Source: Rickettsiales bacterium
GTDB lineage: Bacteria > Pseudomonadota > Alphaproteobacteria > TMED127
Assembly (NCBI GenBank): GCA_002690875.1
Contig: NZGH01000054.1
Coordinates: forward strand, 40,941-100,093
DNA: 59,153 nucleotides
Reading direction: 5' to 3'
Position numbers and translations under genes: made by a program. This document shows, piece by piece, positions 6,742-56,208 of the stretch. How positions within the stretch are numbered: the stretch's first letter is position 1; every line of letters begins with the position of its first letter. The notes below the pieces were generated by a model, which saw only the letters and a program-made list of their open reading frames with translations, had not been told where the DNA came from and did no database searches.

Positions 6742-7347
6742 TTGTAAAATTAAAAGGTTTTGTAGAAGATTGGTTTGAAGATTTTGTTGATTTAGACGTC
6801 AAAGGTGTTGTGTATAGAGTTTTTGTTCCCAAAAAAAATATAAATAAGGTTTCCGAAAGAGGTTCATTAGTAACTTTTTTCATATTTGAAATCCTTAAAG
6901 AAAGTGAAAGACTTTTTTTTGGTTTCTTAAATAAAAATGATAGAGAATTATTCTCTGATTTACTAAAAGTCCAAGGTGTAGGTGGGAAAATGGCTTTGAA
7001 TATTATGAGTAGTTTAGACTCTCAAGTAATAAAGCAGTCAATAATTTCAAAAAATCAAGACGTTTTTTCATCAGTAACCGGTGTAGGCGCAAAGTTGGCT
7101 GTGAGGATTGTAAATGAACTTTCCGAAAAAATAAAAAAAAAAAGAAGACAATTTAAAGGTTATTTCCAATTTTTCCAAAACAATTTTTAATGAATTAGTT
7201 TCATGTCTTTCAAATTTAGGTTACTCTCAAAATATATGTGAAAAAACTGCATTTGAAGTTATAAACAAAAATAAAAAAATGAATTTAGAGGAATTAATAC
7301 CTATTGCTCTAAATTATCTTTCTAGGCCAAATTTATCTAAAAAATGA
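6738..7347 (+). CDS. ruvA: Holliday junction helicase subunit RuvA, split by a frameshift in A11
   Basis: The first frame (6738-7190) gives the RuvA OB domain and helix-hairpin-helix domain (VQGVGGKMALNIMS, TGVGAKLAVRIVNEL) but then ends early at a stop after 150 residues. From about base 7144 the +1 frame continues with KEDNLKVISNFSKT, then NELVSCLSNLGYSQN and IALNYLSRPNLSKK, a clear RuvA domain III that contacts RuvB. It ends in ATGA at the ruvB start. Joined at the run of 11 A (7133-7143), the protein would be about 202 residues, the normal RuvA length. Sequence error, real mutation and slippage are all possible. Confidence 0.85.
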
Positions 7348-8333
7348 CCGAAAAAAATAAAAAGATTGAACTAGATTTAGCTGAAAAAGATGAGGACAAA
7401 AAAACCAGTCTGAGACCTCTTGCTTTAAGTGAGTTTATTGGCCAACAATTTATTAAATCAAATTTAGAGGCTTACATAGAATCATCAAAAAAAAGAAAAA
7501 CCAATTTAGATCATATAATACTTTATGGACCACCTGGTTTGGGAAAGACTTCACTGGCTCATATAATATCAAATGAAAAGAATGTTAACTTTCATTCAAC
7601 TTCCGGACCTGCATTTACTAAAAAAGGCGATTTAGTAACATTATTAAGTAATATGATGGAAGGTGATATATTGTTTATAGATGAGATTCATAGATTATCA
7701 CCAATAATTGAAGAAACACTTTACCCGGCGATGGAAGACTTTAAATGTGACTATGTAATTGGTTCAGGACCTTCTGCAAGAGTTGTTCAAATTTCTATTG
7801 AAAAGTTTACTCTAATTGGTGCAACGACTAGGCTTGGACTTCTTTCTAGACCTTTAAGAGATAGATTTGGAATTCCTTTACAATTAAGTTTTTATGAGCC
7901 TGAAGACTTGATGAAAATAATTATCTTAAATTCCAAAAAACTTAAATTTCTTATTAGTGAAGATTCAGCTTATGAGATTGCAAAAAGATCAAGAGGAACA
8001 CCCCGAATAGCAATAAGATTACTAAAACGTATTATAGACTTTTCAATAGTTAATGAAGATGAAAAAATTGACTTAAAATCGGCAAAAGAATCGTTAAAAA
8101 AAATGAAAATTGATTCGGAAGGGCTTGATGATATGGATAGAAAATACATGAATTGCATTGCATATGATTTTCATGGTGGTCCTGTTGGTATTGAGACTCT
8201 CAGTGCTGCTTTACTTGAACATAAGGATATTATTGAAGATGTGATAGAACCCTATCTAATGCAAAGAGGATTAGTTCAAAGAACATCGAGAGGAAGAATA
8301 TTATCTCAAAAGGGACTCGAGCACCTTAAGTAA
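7344..8333 (+). CDS. ruvB: Holliday junction branch-migration ATPase RuvB
   Basis: A full-length RuvB of 329 residues. It has Walker A GPPGLGKTS near residue 62, Walker B LFIDEIHRL near residue 110, sensor 1 GATTR, the arginine finger region RDRFG and a C-terminal winged-helix domain. RuvB forms hexameric motors that drive DNA through the RuvA-bound junction. Its ATG overlaps the stop of the shifted ruvA frame by 4 bases. This is evidence that the +1 frame of ruvA is the natural C-terminus. Confidence 0.97.
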   Translation: MTEKNKKIELDLAEKDEDKKTSLRPLALSEFIGQQFIKSNLEAYIESSKKRKTNLDHIILYGPPGLGKTSLAHIISNEKNVNFHSTSGPAFTKKGDLVTLLSNMMEGDILFIDEIHRLSPIIEETLYPAMEDFKCDYVIGSGPSARVVQISIEKFTLIGATTRLGLLSRPLRDRFGIPLQLSFYEPEDLMKIIILNSKKLKFLISEDSAYEIAKRSRGTPRIAIRLLKRIIDFSIVNEDEKIDLKSAKESLKKMKIDSEGLDDMDRKYMNCIAYDFHGGPVGIETLSAALLEHKDIIEDVIEPYLMQRGLVQRTSRGRILSQKGLEHLK

Positions 8334-28411: not shown

Positions 28412-29401
28412 TTAGTCGCTTTTTTCACATAGTGATACAAAATCTCTAAATTCCTTTGGTTCTTCAGACTCAAAAAACATGTCCTTTTCCATGTATGGAT
28501 GAAAAAAACCTATTGATTGAGCGTGTAATGCTTGTCGTTTAGGTATTATAAAGTTTTTTTCGATGTTTTCTTTTATATTTAAAGGAAGGTAATCTTTATT
28601 TATATTTTTTTTATAAACAAAATCTCCAATTATAGGAACTCCAATATAATTTAAATGAACTCTTATTTGATGTGTTCTTCCTGTATGAAGCTTACATTCA
28701 TATATGCTTATTGATAATTTTTTAAAATCAAATTTATTTTTCAATTGATACTCAGTCAGCGCATCTCTACCCATATTTTCCTCACAAACTACCATTTTTT
28801 TTCTATTTACTTTCGACCTTATTATATTTTTTTTAATTAAACCCTTTTTAAGATTAGTAGAGTTCCAAGTTAGACAAATATATTTTCTTTTAATATTCCT
28901 ATTTTTAAATTGCTCTGAAAGACTATTATGAGTTATATCATTTTTAGCAATAACTAATAGACCGCTTGTCATTTTGTCAATTCTATGGACAATCCCAGGT
29001 CTTAATACACCACCTATTCCAGATAAAGAGTTTTTGCAATGGTATAATAAACCATTAACTAGGGTATTTTCATAATTTCCTGCACCTGGATGTACTATTA
29101 TTCCCGCCTTTTTATTTAAAACAAGTAAATGTTCATCTTCGTAAAAAATTTCTAGGTCCATTTTTTTGGCAATCAATTTTGAATCTTTAGGTTTAGGTAA
29201 ATTTACAAATAAGGTGCCTTCTTTTTTAATTACCAGTGATTGGTCTTTTATAATTTCTTTATCCAACATAATGTTTCCGTTTAAAATTAGATCTTGAATT
29301 TTATTACGTGAAAAACCATCAATTTTTTTAGATAATAATTTATCAATTCTTTTTCCCAAATCATTGATAGAAACAAATATTTTTATATAATTCTTATTCA
29401 A
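28412..29401 (-). CDS. rluD: RluA/RluD-family 23S rRNA pseudouridine synthase
   Basis: The 329 residues start with an S4 domain (KRIDKLLSKKIDGFSRNKIQDLILNG) and continue with a pseudouridine synthase domain. The catalytic Asp lies in VHRIDKMTSGLLVIAK, with GRTHQIRVHLNYIGVPIIGD and a C-terminal FHP motif. The S4 plus catalytic layout fits RluD (helix 69 of 23S rRNA), but RluC-like specificity cannot be excluded. The start is a TTG at 29401, whose first base is also the first base of the divergent ATG. Confidence 0.88.
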   Translation of the reverse strand: MNKNYIKIFVSINDLGKRIDKLLSKKIDGFSRNKIQDLILNGNIMLDKEIIKDQSLVIKKEGTLFVNLPKPKDSKLIAKKMDLEIFYEDEHLLVLNKKAGIIVHPGAGNYENTLVNGLLYHCKNSLSGIGGVLRPGIVHRIDKMTSGLLVIAKNDITHNSLSEQFKNRNIKRKYICLTWNSTNLKKGLIKKNIIRSKVNRKKMVVCEENMGRDALTEYQLKNKFDFKKLSISIYECKLHTGRTHQIRVHLNYIGVPIIGDFVYKKNINKDYLPLNIKENIEKNFIIPKRQALHAQSIGFFHPYMEKDMFFESEEPKEFRDFVSLCEKSD

Positions 29402-29694
29402 TGAATAAATACCTAAAATTTATAGTCATTTTCTTAGCTGTTTTAATTTTAATTCTATTTTCAATAACAATTTTTGTAATCGTCAAAAAATATAATCAAG
29501 TTGAATATAAATATATTGAAAATTCAGAAATTACCCCCAATTTAACAAATGATCAACTAATTCATTCCTTTGATATTAATAATAATAAACTATATCTTCA
29601 CGTAAAAAATAAATCTAATAACAAATCCTCAATAATAATTTATGATCTTAATAGCAACAAAAAAATTGGAAGTATAATAATTAGAGATAAATGA
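29401..29694 (+). CDS. Small single-span membrane protein (DUF6476-like position)
   Basis: The 97 residues consist of a short N-terminus, one membrane segment (FIVIFLAVLILILFSITIFVIV) and a soluble tail of mainly strand-forming residues. Alphaproteobacteria often have a small one-span gene, annotated DUF6476, divergent from an RluA-family gene; I infer equivalence from position and layout. It is head-to-head with the pseudouridine synthase gene and couples to the next gene by ATGA. Function is unknown. Confidence 0.65.
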   Translation: MNKYLKFIVIFLAVLILILFSITIFVIVKKYNQVEYKYIENSEITPNLTNDQLIHSFDINNNKLYLHVKNKSNNKSSIIIYDLNSNKKIGSIIIRDK

Positions 29695-30149
29695 TAACTA
29701 AAACACTTATAGCATTCCTTACATCCTGGATAATTACTAATACTGAATTTAGTAAAGAAGTTGATCCTCCAGCATTCTTTAAGTTGTCAAAGAAACAAAT
29801 GTCAGATAAAGCTTGTTATTCATCAGAAAATTGTAGAGTCAAAGCTTATTATGTCAAAAAAGAAGGTATTTTTTTCAGGGACAATCTTTTGCCTAATGAT
29901 AATATTTGTGATTTATCAATAATTCTTCACGAAATGGTTCATCATTACCAGAAAAATTCAAACAGGACTTTTGACCTTGATGAGAGAACTCTGTGGACTT
30001 TACAAGAAAGGCAAGCTTTGTACTATCAAAATTTATTTTTAATATCACAAAAAAGACTTAATAACAATAAAGGACCTGAAAACATACTTCAATGTGAAGG
30101 AGGTTCATATCTTGATCTACAATATAAGTACAAAGAAACTAATCAATAA
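29691..30149 (+). CDS. Small HExxH putative metallopeptidase (DUF6647-like), copy 1
   Basis: A 152-residue protein with a zinc-protease-like motif ILHEMVHHYQ near residue 82 and a downstream LQERQALYYQN that could provide a third, glutamate ligand. A cysteine pair (ACYSSENC) precedes the motif, and the N-terminus is weakly hydrophobic (LIAFLTSWIITN). It is related to the protein at 55807-56208: both share the Cys pair, the HExxH with a leading ICxxSIxLHE, and an ExxA..QNxFLI segment. I recall such proteins as DUF6647, but the label should be checked. It overlaps the LOV gene by 11 bases (convergent). Confidence 0.7.
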   Translation: MITKTLIAFLTSWIITNTEFSKEVDPPAFFKLSKKQMSDKACYSSENCRVKAYYVKKEGIFFRDNLLPNDNICDLSIILHEMVHHYQKNSNRTFDLDERTLWTLQERQALYYQNLFLISQKRLNNNKGPENILQCEGGSYLDLQYKYKETNQ

Positions 30150-30555
30150 TTTTATTAAAAGTATGTCTCCTAACAGATTCAACCTCAATGGGGTTTTGTT
30201 CTCCTGCAAAATAAATTAATTTTTTTTCTCTATCAAAAATAGGTATAATTCTTAATCTGTTCCAAAACTTTTCTCCATTTTTTTTGTAATTTAGTATGTC
30301 AATTGTAATTCTCTTTTTAAGCTTTAAAGACAATTTGATTTGCTGAATGTCATTTTCATCAGTTTCAGGACCTTGAAGAAATCTACAATTTTTACCCAAG
30401 GATTCTTTTATACTGTAGCCTGTATGTTTTGAGAACTCTTTACTGATGTAGACCATTGGACAGTCTTTTTGGTAAGGGTCACTAATTACAATACTTCTAT
30501 CTATTTTTTCTAAGTTAAGAAGTTTTAGTGCTATCTTTTCAGAAAGATATTTCAT
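30139..30555 (-). CDS. Stand-alone short LOV-domain blue-light photoreceptor
   Basis: The 138 residues are one PAS/LOV domain with short flanking helices and no output domain. The flavin-binding cysteine motif is GKNCRFLQG with the photoactive Cys57. FMN-contacting residues are also present: Asn89 in ILNYKKNG, Asn99 in FWNRLRI and Gln120 in FAGEQNP. The N-terminal MVYISKEFSKHTGYS also fits. Cys57 is expected to form a blue-light adduct with FMN. With no fused effector, signalling would go through dimerisation or a partner. It neighbours the retinal and proteorhodopsin genes, which suggests a light-response role, by inference. Confidence 0.92.
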   Translation of the reverse strand: MKYLSEKIALKLLNLEKIDRSIVISDPYQKDCPMVYISKEFSKHTGYSIKESLGKNCRFLQGPETDENDIQQIKLSLKLKKRITIDILNYKKNGEKFWNRLRIIPIFDREKKLIYFAGEQNPIEVESVRRHTFNKIID

Positions 30556-30578
30556 AGATATTATAATATAAAATTCTT

Positions 30579-31418
30579 ATGAAAATAAAAAAGCAAAATA
30601 TTTTTGAAAAATTTGACTTTGCCGATGAAGTTGATTCAAATAAACTAAAGACCTCAGTATTTAATGGAAAGATTCTGATACCACAAGGGTTTTCAAGCTT
30701 ACTTTCTTTGATAATTGAAGTAGAAAATTATTTTTTAAAATTTTTTAATGTTTCTATAAATGAATTTGTTAGAGATAATTCAATAATTTTTCAAGAAAAA
30801 GAAATTATAAAGTTTCAAAAGTTAATTAAAAAATCAAAACCTTTATATAAAAAATTTGTAATGTTTTTAAAAGATTTAGGTTTTGAAATTCACGATACTT
30901 ATTGTGATCAAATAACAATTAGATTTAGTCCATCAATTAATGAACAAGGAAAAGGATTATTAAAACCAGCCAAACCACACAGAGATACATGGGCTTCAAA
31001 CTTTCAGCATCAAATTAACTGGTGGGTTCCTTTACACGATTTGTCAAAACAAAATTCTATTTTTTTTTTACCAAAATATTTTACTCAGAAAGTTAAGAAT
31101 AATTCAAAAGACTGGAGTTTCAAATTATTTAAAAAAGGTTATATTAAATGTTCAACACCAGTCTCTCTTCAAAGTTTTAATTCAGTTGACTATAAAACTA
31201 AAAAACTAACTTTAGGTGATGCTTTTTGTTTTTCAGGAAACCATATCCATGGAAGTAACTTAGGAACCTTTAGAAGATTAAATATTGAAACAAGAACATT
31301 ATGTAAAAAAGATTTAAAAAGATTTAGTTTACCTAAAAACATAGATAACAACAATTTAGCTAAACAAGGTAAATGGTTTAAGTCTCTATATGATTCAAAG
31401 TTTTATATGCAAGATTAG
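30579..31418 (+). CDS. 2-oxoglutarate/Fe(II) oxygenase, PhyH/StrG-like
   Basis: A 279-residue protein with a double-stranded beta-helix oxygenase pattern. The iron-binding HxD is PHRDTW (His134, Asp136), the distal histidine is in NHIHGSNLG (His224) and an arginine pair for 2-oxoglutarate follows in TFRRLNIETR. The stretch HRDTWASNFQHQINWW resembles proteins annotated PhyH or StrG-like. The substrate is unknown. It lies between the LOV gene (divergent, 23 bases apart) and blh (convergent, 4-base overlap), so a role in tailoring carotenoid or retinoid, or in a light response, is possible but untested. Confidence 0.8.
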   Translation: MKIKKQNIFEKFDFADEVDSNKLKTSVFNGKILIPQGFSSLLSLIIEVENYFLKFFNVSINEFVRDNSIIFQEKEIIKFQKLIKKSKPLYKKFVMFLKDLGFEIHDTYCDQITIRFSPSINEQGKGLLKPAKPHRDTWASNFQHQINWWVPLHDLSKQNSIFFLPKYFTQKVKNNSKDWSFKLFKKGYIKCSTPVSLQSFNSVDYKTKKLTLGDAFCFSGNHIHGSNLGTFRRLNIETRTLCKKDLKRFSLPKNIDNNNLAKQGKWFKSLYDSKFYMQD

Positions 31419-32290
31419 TCATTTTTTAGAAAATTAATAAGAAAAACATGCGATATTGTTAAAGAGGAAAGTGCAATTACAATATGATTTAAACTTAACA
31501 TGTCATTCTGGATTGAAATTAGTATTAGAAAAAATATTAGTAAGCAACTCAATGCTGTCATAGGTAACGTTCTGATAAATAGTTTTTTGAAAGAAAGGTT
31601 AAGTTTTGACTTTTCGTAAATAAGATGTCGAACAGAATGTAAAAAACAAAAATAAATAAAAAAAGATACTAATGGTTTGAAATATATAAAACAAAAAAAA
31701 AGAAATATTAATTCAATTAACAGATTTGTGGATACTTTGTTGAGTAGAAATTTTATTAAAAAAAAAGAAAAGATAAAGAAAGAGAAATATAAAAAAAAGT
31801 CACTCCAATAAAACAATAAAGAAATTAAATTATCGGTAACAAAAAAAAAGATAAAGATTTCTCTTATCTCATTAATATGAAATTTAATAGGAAAAAAAAT
31901 TATTATAATTGCTCTTAGCAAGACCTCTAATTTTTTTTGCAAGGCAGACTTACTTTCTCTATCACTTATTCCAAAATGAAGCCCGGATAAAATTAAAAAA
32001 AAAATGAAGAATAAATCTGGAAGTATCATCCAAAAATAAAAAAACAAAATTGGGATTGAAATATAAATTAAAAGAAAAAAAAATAAAGTATTCTTTGATT
32101 TTATTAGATTAAATCTTTTAGCTGTAAAAATATCTAGACTTCCATGAGCTAATCCTGGCCATATTAGAGGTAGAGAAAATATAATAAGTTGGTTATATAA
32201 ATTCGAATATATATAGTTTTCAAATAGGTTAACCAATACTGAAAAAAAAAAAATTGATAATATAAATATTTTAAGATCAATTGATTTCAT
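31415..32290 (-). CDS. blh: Beta-carotene 15,15'-dioxygenase, Brp/Blh family
   Basis: A 291-residue membrane protein with about seven or more hydrophobic segments. The iron-ligand histidine motifs of the family are visible: GLAHGSLDIF near residue 47, SGLHFGISD near residue 101 and FLHSVRHLIYE near residue 220. Blh cleaves beta-carotene into two retinals. It is the last gene of the proteorhodopsin-carotenoid unit and overlaps crtY by 14 bases. It is highly divergent in its hydrophobic parts, as is usual for the family. Confidence 0.9.
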   Translation of the reverse strand: MKSIDLKIFILSIFFFSVLVNLFENYIYSNLYNQLIIFSLPLIWPGLAHGSLDIFTAKRFNLIKSKNTLFFFLLIYISIPILFFYFWMILPDLFFIFFLILSGLHFGISDRESKSALQKKLEVLLRAIIIIFFPIKFHINEIREIFIFFFVTDNLISLLFYWSDFFLYFSFFIFSFFLIKFLLNKVSTNLLIELIFLFFCFIYFKPLVSFFIYFCFLHSVRHLIYEKSKLNLSFKKLFIRTLPMTALSCLLIFFLILISIQNDMLSLNHIVIALSSLTISHVFLINFLKND

Positions 32291-33428
32291 TTGATAAAAC
32301 TCTCTTCTTTAAAACTTCAAAAGCTGAAATAAACATTTTTTTTTTTGGTAGGATTATAATAACTCTCAAAAGTTGAAGAAGATTAATATTTCCATTTAGA
32401 AACTTAACTATTAACATTAAATTATTTTTTTTAAAAAAATATAAAAAAAAACTTTTTAGATCTTCAGAATTCTTTTGTATCAAATTACAAAAAACTTCAT
32501 CTAAAAAATTAAGTAAAAAGTTATTTTTGACTCTTATTTTTTTATTATTAAGAATGTTTTCTGTTATAAAGTCTGAATATAAGAAACAATTTTGAAAACT
32601 ATACCCAGTTGATGACTTCATCCAGTTTCCAGGGATACCAATTGGAAAATAATTAAACTGTTGCTTAACATTCTGATTAAACATAGGGAGGATGCCTTGT
32701 TCTTTAAAGTAAATTTGGTATTTTACATTTGGAAAATTTTTATCTATGTATTGTATTATATTTTTTTTATATTTTGATCTTGCAAAAATTTTTTTTGAAA
32801 AATATGTCGATTCAAATAAAGCTTTTTTTGATGAAAAGGGAAGAATATACATAAAATTTATTCCATCAGAAAAACTTTGAAAATCCATTAATGTTACTTG
32901 TTTATTGTTGAGGACATTTTTTTCAAAAACTACTTCATAACCAACAAAATGTTGAAATAAGTCATCTTTTTTCTTTATTAAGTTAGGTCTACTATCAAAA
33001 AGGAATTCACACTCATACTTATATTTACCAATTATCACTTCATTTTTATAGGCGTATTTATTTATTTTATTTATATTTTTTCCATTTAGAATTTTTATTC
33101 TTTTATTTTTTACAAGTTTTTTTGTCATATAGTTGAAAAATGAAGACGAATTTAAATGAAGATATTTGATATTACTATCACTATGAATTATCTCATTCTG
33201 ATCAATCTTTATTTTTATAGAATCCCATGATGTATCAGGTTTTGTTGTAAAGATATTTTGAGGAGTATTCCAAAAACACCAATTCTTGTTGTAGCCTAAT
33301 TTTTTTTTTTTTTCGATTATTAGAATACTTTTTTTTGATCTTTCTGATATTTCATTAGCAAGTATTAATCCAGAAAGTCCAGCGCCTATAATAATTATAT
33401 CAAATTCTTTCCTAATCAAATTTAACAT
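32277..33428 (-). CDS. crtY: Lycopene beta-cyclase
   Basis: The 383 residues begin with an FAD-binding motif (DIIIIGAGLSGLILANEIS) followed by NWCFWNTPQ, a CrtY-type substrate region. Later motifs include VGYEVVFE and GIPGNWMKSSTGYSF (family PxxTGYxF). The enzyme closes both ends of lycopene to give beta-carotene. The position between crtB and blh fits this role. The start ATG lies inside the end of crtB (17-base overlap). CrtY is preferred over the CruA type because of the CrtY-like GxGxxG and TGYSF motifs. Confidence 0.9.
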   Translation of the reverse strand: MLNLIRKEFDIIIIGAGLSGLILANEISERSKKSILIIEKKKKLGYNKNWCFWNTPQNIFTTKPDTSWDSIKIKIDQNEIIHSDSNIKYLHLNSSSFFNYMTKKLVKNKRIKILNGKNINKINKYAYKNEVIIGKYKYECEFLFDSRPNLIKKKDDLFQHFVGYEVVFEKNVLNNKQVTLMDFQSFSDGINFMYILPFSSKKALFESTYFSKKIFARSKYKKNIIQYIDKNFPNVKYQIYFKEQGILPMFNQNVKQQFNYFPIGIPGNWMKSSTGYSFQNCFLYSDFITENILNNKKIRVKNNFLLNFLDEVFCNLIQKNSEDLKSFFLYFFKKNNLMLIVKFLNGNINLLQLLRVIIILPKKKMFISAFEVLKKRVLSNEIN

Positions 33429-34326
33429 TTAATTTTTTCAGTATTAAAATTACTTTATTCTCAAACGTATAATTAAGTGAGAGGTTTTTAGAAAAATATA
33501 ATTTATAAAGTGCTTTCAATGAAAATAAAACTTTTTCAATAAAATTTACATATATTCTTCCCACCCATATGTTTCCTTTTTTGGTAACTATTTTTTTACC
33601 AATTTTTCTGTAAAGTTCTGCTGCTATTGAAACTGGTATCCCATATTCCCTTTTTAAAATATGTATAGAACTCCAAGCGTTTTCATAAAAAAGATCAGCT
33701 TTTTTTAAAAGGACTAACAAATCTTTTGACAATTGTTTTTTTATACTTTTATTACCCAAAATTTTTTCTTTGTCATTTTTTTTAAAACTTCTCATTGATA
33801 GTGGTATATAAATTCTATTCATTTTTAAATCTTCAACTACATCTCTACTTATGTTAGTCAGTTGCATTGCAATTCCTAGTTGGACTCCTCCTAAAATCAT
33901 TTTTTTGTCTCTTATATTTATTATTTTACAAAACATAAAACCAACGGTTCCGGCTACCTGATAGCAATATTTGATTAGTTGCTCAAAAGATTTTATGTTA
34001 ACTTTTTCCCTAAGGTCATACTCGATACCATTTATTAATTCTATCGGAACACTTTTATTAATATTATATTTAATCATTATATCAATAAAGTTTCTAACAG
34101 CTGGAAAAGTTGATTTTTTACTTTTAATTTGGTTTTTTATTATTTTTAACTTTATAAAAGACTCAACTTTACTTAAATTAGGATCGTCACCTAAATCGTC
34201 TAGATACCTACAGAAAATATAAAGATTTTCAATATCTTTTTTTACTTTTGTTGGTAGAAATGCAGAAGCGAAATAAAAGGTTTTGGCTCTATATTGTAAC
34301 GTCAGCTTTTTGTCATTTATTTTCAT
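33412..34326 (-). CDS. crtB: Phytoene synthase
   Basis: A 304-residue squalene/phytoene synthase. The first Asp-rich motif is YLDDLGDD near residue 42, and the second is TNISRDVVEDLKMNRIYIP near residue 160, with YCYQVAGTVGFMF in between. CrtB condenses two GGPP molecules to phytoene, the first committed step to carotenoids. It overlaps crtI and crtY by 14 and 17 bases, so the four downstream genes are translated as a packed unit. Confidence 0.94.
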   Translation of the reverse strand: MKINDKKLTLQYRAKTFYFASAFLPTKVKKDIENLYIFCRYLDDLGDDPNLSKVESFIKLKIIKNQIKSKKSTFPAVRNFIDIMIKYNINKSVPIELINGIEYDLREKVNIKSFEQLIKYCYQVAGTVGFMFCKIINIRDKKMILGGVQLGIAMQLTNISRDVVEDLKMNRIYIPLSMRSFKKNDKEKILGNKSIKKQLSKDLLVLLKKADLFYENAWSSIHILKREYGIPVSIAAELYRKIGKKIVTKKGNIWVGRIYVNFIEKVLFSLKALYKLYFSKNLSLNYTFENKVILILKKLNVKFD

Positions 34327-35794
34327 TGATAATTAAGTTTTCAATAATTTTTGCAGAGCTTACAACTCCAGGAACTCCAGCTCCAGGATGGCTTCCAGCT
34401 CCAGTAAAATAAAGATTTTTAAAATCCTCTGATTTGTTATGAAACCTAAACCATGCAGATTGTTTAAAAACAGGACTTATGGAAAAACCTGAACCGTAAG
34501 TTGATAAATAATCATTTTTAAAGTTTTCTGGTGTCATATAAAAACAGACTTCTAGATTTTTTCTTAATTCCGGCATTATTGTTTTTTCAAGAGCTAATAA
34601 TATCTTATTTTTATATTTCTCTCCATTTTTTTTCCAATCTAAATTTCCTTTTAAATTTGGTACCGGAGATAAAACATAAAAACAGTCACATCCTTTAGGA
34701 GCCATTGATTGATCTGTTGAAGTCGGTCTGTGAAGGTAGAGACTAAAGTCGTCGGCTAAAACTTTTTTCTTGAAAATATCATTTAATAAACCTTCATATC
34801 GTTTTCCCATCCAAATTGTGTGATGAGCAATCTTTTTATATTTTTTTTTTGTCCCAAAAAAAATAACGAATAGTCCCATCGAATAATCAAGGTTATCAAT
34901 GCGTTTGTTATTCCATTTTTTGTTATAAGGGGTTTTAAGTAAGTGCTTGTAGGTATAGGTTGGATCAGCGTTTATAATAATTTTATCAGCAAGAAAAGTT
35001 TTTTCTTTGTTTACTTCAACACCTATAACTGTATTTTTCTCAGTAATTATTTTTGTAACTTCTGAGTTTCTCTTGATAACAATTTTTTCTTCTAACATTA
35101 GTTTTTTTAACCCATCAATAAGTGCTCCTGTTCCCCCCATAGCATAATGAACTCCCCATTTCCTTTCTAGAAAATGAATTAAATTATAGATAGATGTAGT
35201 TGTAATTGGATTTCCACCCAATAAAAGAGGTTGTATACTCAAAGCTTGTTGTAGTTGATTATTCTTAATAAACTTTCCTACTAAACTAAAAACGCTTAAA
35301 TAACTTTTTAATATTAAAAGTGTTGGGAGTTGTTTTATCATAAACCAAAAGTTATGAAATGGAGTAAATGATAATTTTAAAAAACCAACATTGAAAATTT
35401 TTTCAGAAAATTTAAGGAGTTTTCTGTAACCCTCCACGTCCCTATAATTAAATTTTTTAATTTCATCTTCTGTTTTTTTTAAGTCGTCTGAATAATCAAA
35501 AATTTTTTTATTTGATGAGAAATAAAATCTATACCAAGGGTCTAATCTAACAAATTTTACGTATTTTTTTCTATCCTTTTTGAATAATTTAAACAGCTCG
35601 TCAAATAAAAAAGGTGCAGTAATTACTGTTGGACCCGCATCAAAAGTGTATCCTGATTTTTTAAAAACCCTTGCTCTACCTCCGATTTGGTCTAGCTTTT
35701 CTAATATTGTGACTTGAAACCCAAGTTTTCTAAGTCGCAATGCAGATGCAATTCCACCAAAACCGGATCCTACAACCAATGCTTTTTTTTTCAT
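34313..35794 (-). CDS. crtI: Phytoene desaturase CrtI
   Basis: A 493-residue CrtI. The N-terminal FAD motif is ALVVGSGFGGIASALRLRKLG, followed by DQIGGRARVFKKSGYTFDAGPTVI, and the C-terminal signature is YFTGAGSHPGAGVPGVVSSA. Bacterial CrtI converts phytoene to lycopene by four desaturations. The ATG overlaps the crtE stop by one base (TAATG). Length and motif order are complete. Confidence 0.96.
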   Translation of the reverse strand: MKKKALVVGSGFGGIASALRLRKLGFQVTILEKLDQIGGRARVFKKSGYTFDAGPTVITAPFLFDELFKLFKKDRKKYVKFVRLDPWYRFYFSSNKKIFDYSDDLKKTEDEIKKFNYRDVEGYRKLLKFSEKIFNVGFLKLSFTPFHNFWFMIKQLPTLLILKSYLSVFSLVGKFIKNNQLQQALSIQPLLLGGNPITTTSIYNLIHFLERKWGVHYAMGGTGALIDGLKKLMLEEKIVIKRNSEVTKIITEKNTVIGVEVNKEKTFLADKIIINADPTYTYKHLLKTPYNKKWNNKRIDNLDYSMGLFVIFFGTKKKYKKIAHHTIWMGKRYEGLLNDIFKKKVLADDFSLYLHRPTSTDQSMAPKGCDCFYVLSPVPNLKGNLDWKKNGEKYKNKILLALEKTIMPELRKNLEVCFYMTPENFKNDYLSTYGSGFSISPVFKQSAWFRFHNKSEDFKNLYFTGAGSHPGAGVPGVVSSAKIIENLIINENK

Positions 35795-36891
35795 TAATGA
35801 ACTTTAATTTTATCTGAAATCCTTAACAAAATATTCAGAATTACAAATTCTGTTATTTTATTAAGTCCGTTACTTACTTTCCTGGATTTTAAAATAGCAT
35901 CTTTGGATACTTTTATTAAATGCTCTATTGATTTTTCTATTATTCCTCTACTTTTTATAATTTTAATCCAATTTAAAATGTCATCCTCTGATATTGATTC
36001 AGATTTTTTTGTAAAAAACTCTTTCAATAAAAATCTCTCACCACTTGTTGCTGTTTCTAAAAAATGCATTATTAAAACATTCATTTTTCCTTCTTTAAGA
36101 TCTCTACCTGGAAGTCCTCTATCTTTAATACCAAGAAAGTCAGAAAGGTCGTCTTGTATTTGATAAGCTAATCCGGCTTCATATAATGGCTTAAAATTAA
36201 TCTCATCAATATTTTTTTCGCCATTCAAGATCATTATAAGCTTTATTGGCCAGCAAATTAATCCTCCTGTTTTAGCTTTAGCAGTAGATTCATACTCTTC
36301 CATTCTCAAATTGAGATTAGATCTCTGGAGAATTTCATGTGATTGACCTTTTACAGTTTGTTGAATTGTATAACTCAAATGTTCAATGGCTTTACATTTG
36401 TTCTCAGGGTTACCTTTTATTTTAGACAATGCTTCAAATGAACCAGCGATAAAGTAGTCACCTAGATTTATTGCAGTATGATCTCCAAATCTATTCCAAA
36501 TAGTTGGAAGACCTCTTCTTAGGATGTCTCTATCTTGAAGGTCGTCATGAATTAATGAAGCATTATGAATTAACTCACAACAGATAGCGGCATAAATTGC
36601 ACTTTCGTTGCTTATTTTATAAATATCTGCCGCAATAAGTGCTAATAATGCTCTAAATCTTTTTCCACCAGAGTGAAGTTGATATTTTGCACAATGCCCC
36701 ATCCATGAGTCGTCACATAGAATTGTGTTCATTTTTTTTTCAACTGATCTTAATTTACTTTTATATTTTGAGTTTAATAAAAATTTATGATTTAAGGCAT
36801 TGGAAAGCTTATCTAGTTCATCCCAATTAGAACATGAGCGAACAAAATCAAGGTTTTCCTTATAGCTTTTATAACTTTGATTTCTAAACAT
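35794..36891 (-). CDS. crtE: Geranylgeranyl diphosphate synthase
   Basis: A 365-residue trans-prenyltransferase. The first Asp-rich motif is LIHDDLQDRDILRRG and the second is YQIQDDLSDFLGI; GGKRFRALL precedes them. The ATG at 36891 is the better start; a TTG two codons upstream is possible. Placement with crtI and crtB and the difference from the ispA paralogue at 47159 support the GGPP role. It has an N-terminal extension of about 60 residues before GGKRFR. The start lies directly after the proteorhodopsin terminator. Confidence 0.92.
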   Translation of the reverse strand: MFRNQSYKSYKENLDFVRSCSNWDELDKLSNALNHKFLLNSKYKSKLRSVEKKMNTILCDDSWMGHCAKYQLHSGGKRFRALLALIAADIYKISNESAIYAAICCELIHNASLIHDDLQDRDILRRGLPTIWNRFGDHTAINLGDYFIAGSFEALSKIKGNPENKCKAIEHLSYTIQQTVKGQSHEILQRSNLNLRMEEYESTAKAKTGGLICWPIKLIMILNGEKNIDEINFKPLYEAGLAYQIQDDLSDFLGIKDRGLPGRDLKEGKMNVLIMHFLETATSGERFLLKEFFTKKSESISEDDILNWIKIIKSRGIIEKSIEHLIKVSKDAILKSRKVSNGLNKITEFVILNILLRISDKIKVH

Positions 36892-36892
36892 A

Positions 36893-36930
36893 ACCAAAAA
36901 ATAAGGGAAACATCAATGTGATGTTTCCCC
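36893..36930 (-). terminator. Terminator or attenuator between proteorhodopsin and crtE
   Basis: The minus strand has a perfect 11-base-pair stem (GGGAAACATCA paired with TGATGTTTCCC, loop of 3, 36905-36929) followed by TTATTTTTT. It lies 22 bases after the proteorhodopsin stop and just before the crtE ATG at 36891. It should stop most transcripts and let a fraction read into the crt genes. Confidence 0.85.
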
Positions 36931-36951
36931 TAAAATTGTTAATTACATTAC

Positions 36952-37650
36952 TTAAGCTTTTGAAGTATCAGCTTTTGCTGCAGCCCAAATAATTACACCA
37001 AATGCGATTTTATTGATGTAGTCAGCTAAGTTATAAACCCAGTTTAATGTAGCTGCATCAGCACCTGCACCTGATAAATAACCTAGGAAATATCCTATAG
37101 GATAAATAGACCAACCAATAGAAACAATCCACTTAAGAGCGTTAAAAGCGGATTTCATACCTGCAGAATTACTTGCAGCGCTAGCTTGAGCAGCCTCACC
37201 AGCAAATACTTCATAAAGTATGTAAATCCATCCAGCCATACCGATGATGAATCCCACAGTTGCGTTAATGTAGCCAGCTTCGCCCATGAAGCCACCAACA
37301 AGCATTATAATAGTACCAATTAGTAGTCTCCAAAAGATTCCAGCTGTAGCTGCTCCAACTGCAGCAAGAATAAGGTAAAATTCAATCATTTGAAGTGGCA
37401 CCGTTAGTAACCAATCAATGTATCTTAAAACGGTAGGTGATTCACCTGTAGAAACCCATACATCTCTCATATAGTAGTAGTGCACAGCAGCGATTAATGT
37501 TACTAGACCGGCTACTCTGACAGATGTTGCCCAATGCTTTGAAACACTGTTTGCTTCTAGGAAGAAGAAAGCAGTTGAGGCTACCATTGAAACTGAAATT
37601 ATCCAAAAAGTAACACCAACAAAGTCTTCTGGTTTTAGCATATAATCCAT
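36952..37650 (-). CDS. Proteorhodopsin, predicted blue-absorbing
   Basis: A 232-residue, seven-helix retinal protein. Proton-pump residues are present: the acceptor Asp79 in RYIDWLLTVP, the donor Glu90, His57 in AVHYYYMR (the acceptor's partner in many proteorhodopsins) and Lys214 in DYINKIAFG for the retinal Schiff base. The tuning position eight residues after the acceptor Asp is Gln87; in known proteorhodopsins Gln there gives blue absorption and Leu gives green. No cleavable signal peptide is evident at the N-terminus. It is a light-driven outward proton pump of the inner membrane and heads the unit that supplies retinal. Confidence 0.98.
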   Translation of the reverse strand: MDYMLKPEDFVGVTFWIISVSMVASTAFFFLEANSVSKHWATSVRVAGLVTLIAAVHYYYMRDVWVSTGESPTVLRYIDWLLTVPLQMIEFYLILAAVGAATAGIFWRLLIGTIIMLVGGFMGEAGYINATVGFIIGMAGWIYILYEVFAGEAAQASAASNSAGMKSAFNALKWIVSIGWSIYPIGYFLGYLSGAGADAATLNWVYNLADYINKIAFGVIIWAAAKADTSKA

Positions 37651-55806: not shown

Positions 55807-56208
55807 ATGCTTACTAATATATTACCATTTCTTTTGGAATGGATTACTCAAAATACGCATTATAATGCTAGCATTTTCAATTTTGAAGTTATTGAGCTAT
55901 CAAAATATGAACTCCAAGCTTTAGCATGTGGAGGGAAATGTCCAGTAATTGCTTTTTTTAAGCCTGAAATGGGTATTCTAATTTCAAAAATGGATTTTGA
56001 AAATATATGTAATCAATCAATCTTACTTCATGAGATCATTCATGCATTGCAGTATTTAAGTGAGTTAAATTTAGTGAACGCATTTAAAGAAAAAGAGGCC
56101 TATCAAATTCAAAATAAATTTCTTATAGAAATTTCAGTTAAAGAGGAGTTAATTGATCCTTTGAATTTAAAAAAATGTAGATCATTGCAGTCAAATGCAT
56201 TAATGTAA
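55807..56208 (+). CDS. Small HExxH putative metallopeptidase (DUF6647-like), copy 2
   Basis: A 133-residue relative of the protein at 29691-30149. Both share an N-terminal hydrophobic helix with W-x-T-x-N-T, a Cys pair (ACGGKC here), [17 protein letters not shown] with the HExxH motif and [15 protein letters not shown] with a possible third ligand Glu. It lies between pyrE (divergent) and fhs, starting 55 bases after the pyrE start and ending 5 bases before fhs. Function is unknown; zinc binding is predicted only from the motif. Confidence 0.7.

Follow-up and report, generated by a model that had tools for sequence, protein, structure and literature searches.

The window considered here, by which is meant the whole 59,153-nucleotide stretch of contig NZGH01000054.1, encodes a short LOV protein (138 amino acids, positions 30139 to 30555, minus strand) which appears to be a working blue-light receptor of the same type as DsLOV from Dinoroseobacter shibae, with the photochemistry predicted for that type. 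Its start codon lies 23 bp from that of a divergently transcribed gene for a PhyH-like Fe(II)/2-oxoglutarate oxygenase (279 amino acids, 30579 to 31418, plus strand), and the two adjoin a blh-crtYBIE-proteorhodopsin cluster, an arrangement first described in a sequence-only reading of the window and borne out by the coordinates of the genes and by the Pfam matches of all but the oxygenase. The position of the LOV gene beside the retinal genes is best read as an old, frozen gene order. Moreover, the LOV gene has been lost cleanly at least twice within the host's order, with the oxygenase and retinal genes kept, and is therefore dispensable. The overall picture that we favour, with somewhat more confidence than doubt, is that of a fast-cycling sensor of the DsLOV type acting in trans through an unlinked partner, together with a PhyH-like oxygenase whose substrate is probably not retinal, their adjacency being a matter of gene order. 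To judge from the sequence, the host, which has proteorhodopsin, carries a new protein of the DsLOV kind.

The short LOV protein

The protein consists of a single LOV domain, recognised as one PAS domain (PAS_9, E 6.9e-16), with short flanks and no effector domain. Close relatives of the window are uncultured marine alphaproteobacteria, and the order to which the host belongs, putatively labelled HIMB59/AEGEAN-169, is represented here by 32 genomes. In all 13 LOV sequences of the set (those of 12 genomes of the order and that of the window) the residues which the sequence-only reading had picked out are present, namely Cys57, the putative adduct site within a GxNCRFLQ motif, and Asn89, Asn99 and Gln120, the two asparagines and the glutamine directed to the flavin. 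The closest solved structure to the LOV profile is DsLOV (4kuk, E 4.9e-45), with positions 10-123 aligned. Equally invariant (13/13) is Met34, which lies 23 residues before the cysteine, the same spacing as that from M49 to C72 in DsLOV. Published work on DsLOV gives an adduct lifetime of 9.6 s, proposes M49 on strand B-beta as its cause and describes dimerisation of the protein through its N-cap (PMC4335406). With Met34 in place of DsLOV Met49, therefore, the adduct of the window's protein would be expected to decay within seconds, such that the sensor would follow current irradiance.

The resemblance to DsLOV takes in the LOV core, the Cys/Asn/Asn/Gln set, part of the N-terminal cap, the B-beta methionine and the lack of an effector domain, and extends to the host, which in both cases is a marine alphaproteobacterium using light energy. 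The two differ in that the host of DsLOV is a bacteriochlorophyll phototroph, whereas that of the window has proteorhodopsin, and in that the window's protein has a short C-terminal tail past the aligned region. DsLOV is reported to control the accumulation of carotenoid and bacteriochlorophyll, and in a deletion strain pigment formation is almost completely abolished in every light tested (PMC4335406). The same paper describes RsLOV from Rhodobacter sphaeroides, a short LOV protein likened to the window's by description only, as affecting pigment and photo-oxidative stress genes in a host which, unlike that of the window, uses bacteriochlorophyll (PMC4335406).

A mechanism may be sketched along these lines. 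Bound flavin mononucleotide would absorb near 450 nm and Cys57 would form the flavin adduct, upon which the N-terminal cap and the beta-sheet of the LOV dimer would move. The affinity of the dimer for a partner encoded elsewhere, most likely a regulator of transcription, would change, such that this partner is bound or released. By analogy with DsLOV, it may be the dark state of the protein that favours phototrophy or photo-oxidative stress genes, possibly including those for proteorhodopsin and the crt enzymes. A related arrangement is found in Pseudomonas mendocina, where PmSB-LOV works with PmlR2, a LitR regulator of MerR type which is reported to be encoded next door (PMC9758184). As with PmSB-LOV, a short LOV protein with no effector domain would be expected to have a protein partner. 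Unlike PmSB-LOV, the window's protein has no neighbouring regulator, and the MerR proteins of the order are only 102-116 amino acids long.

The LOV gene is under purifying selection. The ratio of non-synonymous to synonymous substitution rates (dN/dS) is 0.061, 0.038, 0.029 and 0.018 in four of the five pairs compared, three of these values resting on a dS of at least 0.89, and dS is saturated in the fifth. Such low ratios indicate that the gene is in use where it is present. As side observations, one 138-amino-acid LOV relative (P0163) is named biphenyl 2,3-dioxygenase at its source, apparently in error, and no LOV protein was found in the viral contigs searched.

Gene order and losses of the LOV gene

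Within the order, LOV was found in 12 of the 32 genomes, proteorhodopsin in 25 and the oxygenase in 26, although several genomes break in the region and their completeness is not given, such that whole-gene absences outside a read slot mean little. Where LOV is present it is always in the same slot (12/12). This constancy is not peculiar to the LOV gene. When the window was set against five genomes of the order, of which two represent its deepest lineages, its genes, housekeeping genes included, proved colinear in all five over up to 60 kb. The exceptions are a few best hits that fall on paralogues, i.e. those of gene 60 in G008, G015 and G010, genes 12 and 21 in G015 and genes 12 and 13 in G010; in addition, gene 39 was not found in G010, and the stretch covered is shorter in G015 and G010. 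Since the whole 59-kb window is colinear across the order, the adjacency of LOV, oxygenase and blh is no evidence of a functional unit. In these genomes, in which the order of genes persists across the 59 kb examined or more, adjacency is weak evidence of function.

The slot itself can be read without LOV. In 13 genomes (10, plus G021, G024 and G025) the DNA between u152, the gene on the far side of LOV, and the oxygenase could be read from end to end and holds no LOV gene; in these both the oxygenase and blh are present. A search of G027 for the 63 window genes found 62 and missed only LOV. No LOV relative was detected elsewhere in any of the 20 LOV-less genomes of the order; among these 20, the slot could not be assessed in G032, which ends inside blh, or in G018, which ends inside the oxygenase, and five more have no oxygenase match. 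In a seven-gene tree (from which L088 and L091, present in a first tree, were omitted) nine LOV-less genomes group together, whereas G015, which also lacks LOV, falls within a LOV-bearing group. The tree thus calls for LOV to have changed state twice, and holding the LOV-less genomes in one clade is rejected (p-AU 1e-5). Since LOV is present in every one of the deepest lineages whose slot is readable, loss is likelier than gain, and LOV is probably ancestral in the order, with the qualification that the tree leaves the branching order of the deepest lineages unresolved and that its root is placed by purA alone of eight outgroup genomes. The sequence-only reading had looked to conservation of the neighbourhood among relatives as a sign of a unit. 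The neighbourhood is indeed kept in the order, but LOV itself, missing from the 13 read slots, is not.

The gap between the two divergent start codons (30556 to 30578) is AT-rich and in the window holds a palindromic, TATAAT-like stretch, which is absent from most relatives. A divergent promoter shared by LOV and oxygenase finds no support, the palindrome mostly not being kept and promoter-like sites numbering 53 against 60.4 expected in shuffled sequences. The gap list lacks L080, and gaps are quoted without L005, whose printed value rests on a guessed start.

Beyond the order, a class sample of 385 genomes holds 22 with blh, of which five belong to the order and 17 do not. Neither LOV nor the oxygenase lies in the read flanks of the 17 outside blh loci (0/17), the scans covering mostly ~7 kb per side and less at contig ends; one of these scans, made with unfiltered open reading frames, detected the gene sought at each of 13 positive loci. 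Taken over whole genomes, LOV occurs in one of the 17 outside genomes with blh and in 34 of 363 without a blh match (Fisher p = 1), in counts made at E 1e-20 which include LOV domains of larger proteins. At three loci with a short LOV frame the scanned neighbours are transporters, an arylsulfotransferase and MmgE/PrpD (G240), DUF4399 and fumarase (G214) and an FMN-dependent dehydrogenase (G033), with no pigment genes among them. Outside the order, LOV and oxygenase genes occur equally often away from retinal genes, an outcome which the sequence-only reading had itself named as refuting its proposal.

That reading had proposed a unit which senses and uses the same blue part of the spectrum. What stands is a blue-light sensor, by its sequence, in a bacterium with a blue-type proteorhodopsin, together with the control of photopigments by DsLOV; what is not supported, given the colinearity, the losses and the outside loci, is a dedicated unit. 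The proteorhodopsin bears the tuning-site glutamine of the blue type in 27 of 27 loci and the pump residues D-T-E in 26 of 27, the last residue being unread in L087, such that the blue-tuned pump of the earlier proposal is upheld. A tie between the presence of LOV and the colour of the pump is not supported by the same 27 loci. It is in this context that a LOV protein dedicated to its neighbours, with blue light tuning crt and blh or proteorhodopsin through a partner in trans, has to be weighed. The pigment control exerted by DsLOV (PMC4335406), the slot beside oxygenase and blh kept in every LOV-bearing genome and the invariant blue-type glutamine are all as it would predict. Window-wide colinearity, however, removes adjacency as evidence, the losses of LOV left proteorhodopsin (still of blue type) and crt in place, and LOV is neither near blh outside the order nor enriched genome-wide alongside it. 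We regard such a dedicated regulator as unlikely.

The same observations bear on the opposite view, that what LOV acts on has nothing to do with phototrophy (it might be general stress, the surface or something else) and that its place beside proteorhodopsin is owed to history only. The gene order kept throughout the window, the losses without change in proteorhodopsin or crt gene content and the three other LOV loci scanned, with no pigment genes among their neighbours, would all follow from it, whereas the protein of closest solved structure, DsLOV, regulates photopigments. This view is a real possibility, which nevertheless falls short of being likely.

To our knowledge, little is settled about the way in which bacteria with proteorhodopsin match the pump to the light. 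It is conceivable, if doubtful, that in this order the fast-cycling DsLOV-type sensor sets the level of retinal or proteorhodopsin by current blue irradiance, and that two lineages gave up the control while keeping the pump. Were this true, it would constitute short-LOV control of a rhodopsin system, which was not found in the literature searched, and the two LOV-less lineages would be natural LOV-minus controls. The same searches, whose coverage leaves out many subscription papers, turned up nothing published on LOV proteins of this order, and term searches within PMC10308909, PMC11366302 and PMC10308929 gave no mention of LOV; Vibrio campbellii with proteorhodopsin is described as having no LOV protein (PMC3380642). 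In any case, a streamlined marine group in which a short LOV is conserved in some species and cleanly lost in others allows paired comparisons in existing transcriptome data.

The oxygenase

Three residues of the oxygenase, H134, D136 and H224, are shared by all 18 orthologues and by all 69 sequences of a wider set, and we take these to be the iron ligands of an HxD...H pattern. Two loci were omitted from the oxygenase alignment (A2), L005 because of its uncertain N-terminus and L025 because the gene is split over two frames; the start codons of several oxygenase genes, being the first possible codon, are also uncertain. The split gene (genome G012, L025 ~6930-7752) may reflect either an assembly error or decay. 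The structure predicted for the enzyme, a confident model (pLDDT 94.2), folds like PhyH-type Fe(II)/2-oxoglutarate enzymes. The nearest folds are PtlH (PDB 2rdq; 14% identity) and AndA, with FtmOx1 and OkaE within 2 Z units, and Foldseek TM-scores are about 0.4-0.6 among the matches listed. PtlH and AndA are terpenoid oxygenases. By sequence, no match better than E = 1 was obtained against the PDB and none to Pfam PhyH at E 0.01, such that the enzyme is called PhyH-like from its fold and ligand pattern only. Its one NCBIfam match is to TIGR04324, at 28.2 bits against a cut-off of 150. The earlier label 'PhyH/StrG-like' thus holds in its first half by fold and ligands; its second half is unsupported, there being no curated StrG-named match among the family models compared, which do not include StrG itself.

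Relatives of the oxygenase that share short words with it numbered 127 in a search across 5.8 billion proteins. A profile search placed the family in 25 of the 385 class genomes, these being five in the order, three others with blh and 17 without (the match in G138 is marginal, E 9.8e-6). In the three genomes outside the order that have blh, all small, the oxygenase gene lies ~200 kb from blh or on another contig, its neighbours being genes for fructokinase and phosphofructokinase to one side and for sarcosine oxidase to the other; the family scans were made at L186 only, and the other two loci have the same gene order. Eight aligned homologues from outside the order share 20-27% identity with the window's protein and keep both the HxD and the second histidine. 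In the LOV-less genomes the oxygenase gene begins 2-32 bp after u152, with which it shares a strand (nine loci measured), and this tight spacing makes co-transcription of u97, u152 and oxygenase likely. The substrate of the oxygenase is probably not retinal, and in function the enzyme is probably unrelated.

A number of points weigh against the reading that we favour, i.e. a sensor acting in trans and an oxygenase placed beside it by gene order. The oxygenase adjoins blh, in convergent orientation, in all 26 genomes of the order that have the oxygenase. The stop codons of the two genes overlap in 18 of the 22 loci measured (L025 is absent from the list), in the window by 4 bp. A function linked to retinal would account for this arrangement as well. 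Moreover, the nearest folds of the model, those of PtlH and AndA, are compatible with an isoprenoid substrate. As to LOV, no partner was found and no regulator gene is adjacent to it; a partner of the MerR/LitR kind tied to LOV is not supported, since a short MerR protein (102-116 amino acids, one per genome) occurs in nine of 12 LOV-bearing genomes and in 15 of the 20 others. The LOV gene tree is poorly resolved, with two of ten branches starred, and agrees with vertical descent without proving it. Finally, DsLOV and the window's protein can be aligned only in the LOV core and in part of the N-cap, which makes the regulatory role an analogy.

The points that concern the oxygenase raise the question of whether it tailors retinal or a carotenoid, acting on blh or crt products. 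Its constant convergence with blh, the terpenoid and meroterpenoid oxygenases among its nearest folds and a dN/dS of the same order as those of blh and crtY would agree with such an enzyme. Against it stand the homologues in 20 of the 385 class genomes outside the order, 17 of them without blh and three with blh at a distance, and the position of the gene in LOV-less genomes, where it follows u97 and u152 closely and in the same orientation, as though in an operon with them. The enzyme may conceivably act on retinal or a carotenoid, although nothing specific speaks for this, and we hold a tailoring enzyme of this kind to be quite improbable.

Proteorhodopsin, the retinal genes and their neighbours

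All genes of the cluster lie on the minus strand. The gene for blh, of the beta-carotene 15,15'-dioxygenase family (31415 to 32290; PF15461, E 1.3e-34), is followed in the numbering of the window by those for the lycopene cyclase crtY (32277 to 33428), the phytoene synthase crtB (33412 to 34326), the phytoene desaturase crtI (34313 to 35794) and the polyprenyl synthase crtE (35794 to 36897), each with a Pfam match. The match at 34313 to 35794 is to the broad Amino_oxidase family (PF01593), and crtI is the name that we assume for this gene. Proteorhodopsin itself (36952 to 37650) is assigned by its Pfam match and pump residues, with the D-T-E motif and glutamine at the tuning position. Between proteorhodopsin and crtE is a strong terminator-like hairpin with a T run (36902 to 36932, minus strand). 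The TTG start of crtE, as shown, sits in this T run, such that the true start may be further in. Comparable hairpins, which differ in the letters of their stems, occur at 23 of 23 printed loci of the order and at 3 of 3 proteorhodopsin loci of other small genomes; the opsin and the retinal enzymes are therefore probably produced at different levels. If light controls retinal at all, it may do so through read-through as well as at a promoter. The cluster is like other proteorhodopsin-crtEIBY-blh clusters in its six genes and in the hairpin that splits proteorhodopsin from crt, and unlike them in carrying LOV and oxygenase at its far end, which among the loci examined is confined to this order.

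In three LOV-less loci (L082, L084 and L087) the proteorhodopsin is 94-97% identical to that of the window, against ~80% in sister genomes, and the flanking genes are far more diverged. A recent transfer is not supported, since third codon positions match those of the window at 52-54%, about as in the flanking genes; the discordance is therefore old. One genome (G030) has two proteorhodopsin loci (L060 and L076), each followed by crtE and crtI, and is either a mixed bin or the bearer of a true duplicate.

On the other side of LOV, u152 (29691 to 30149, plus strand) has an invariant HExxH and a weak match to DUF6647, under the cut-off, and u97 (29401 to 29694, plus strand) is an open reading frame for a small protein upstream of it. 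A further gene of the window, at 55807-56208, finds its best matches in three genomes to be u152 (31-34% identity) and is likely a u152 paralogue.

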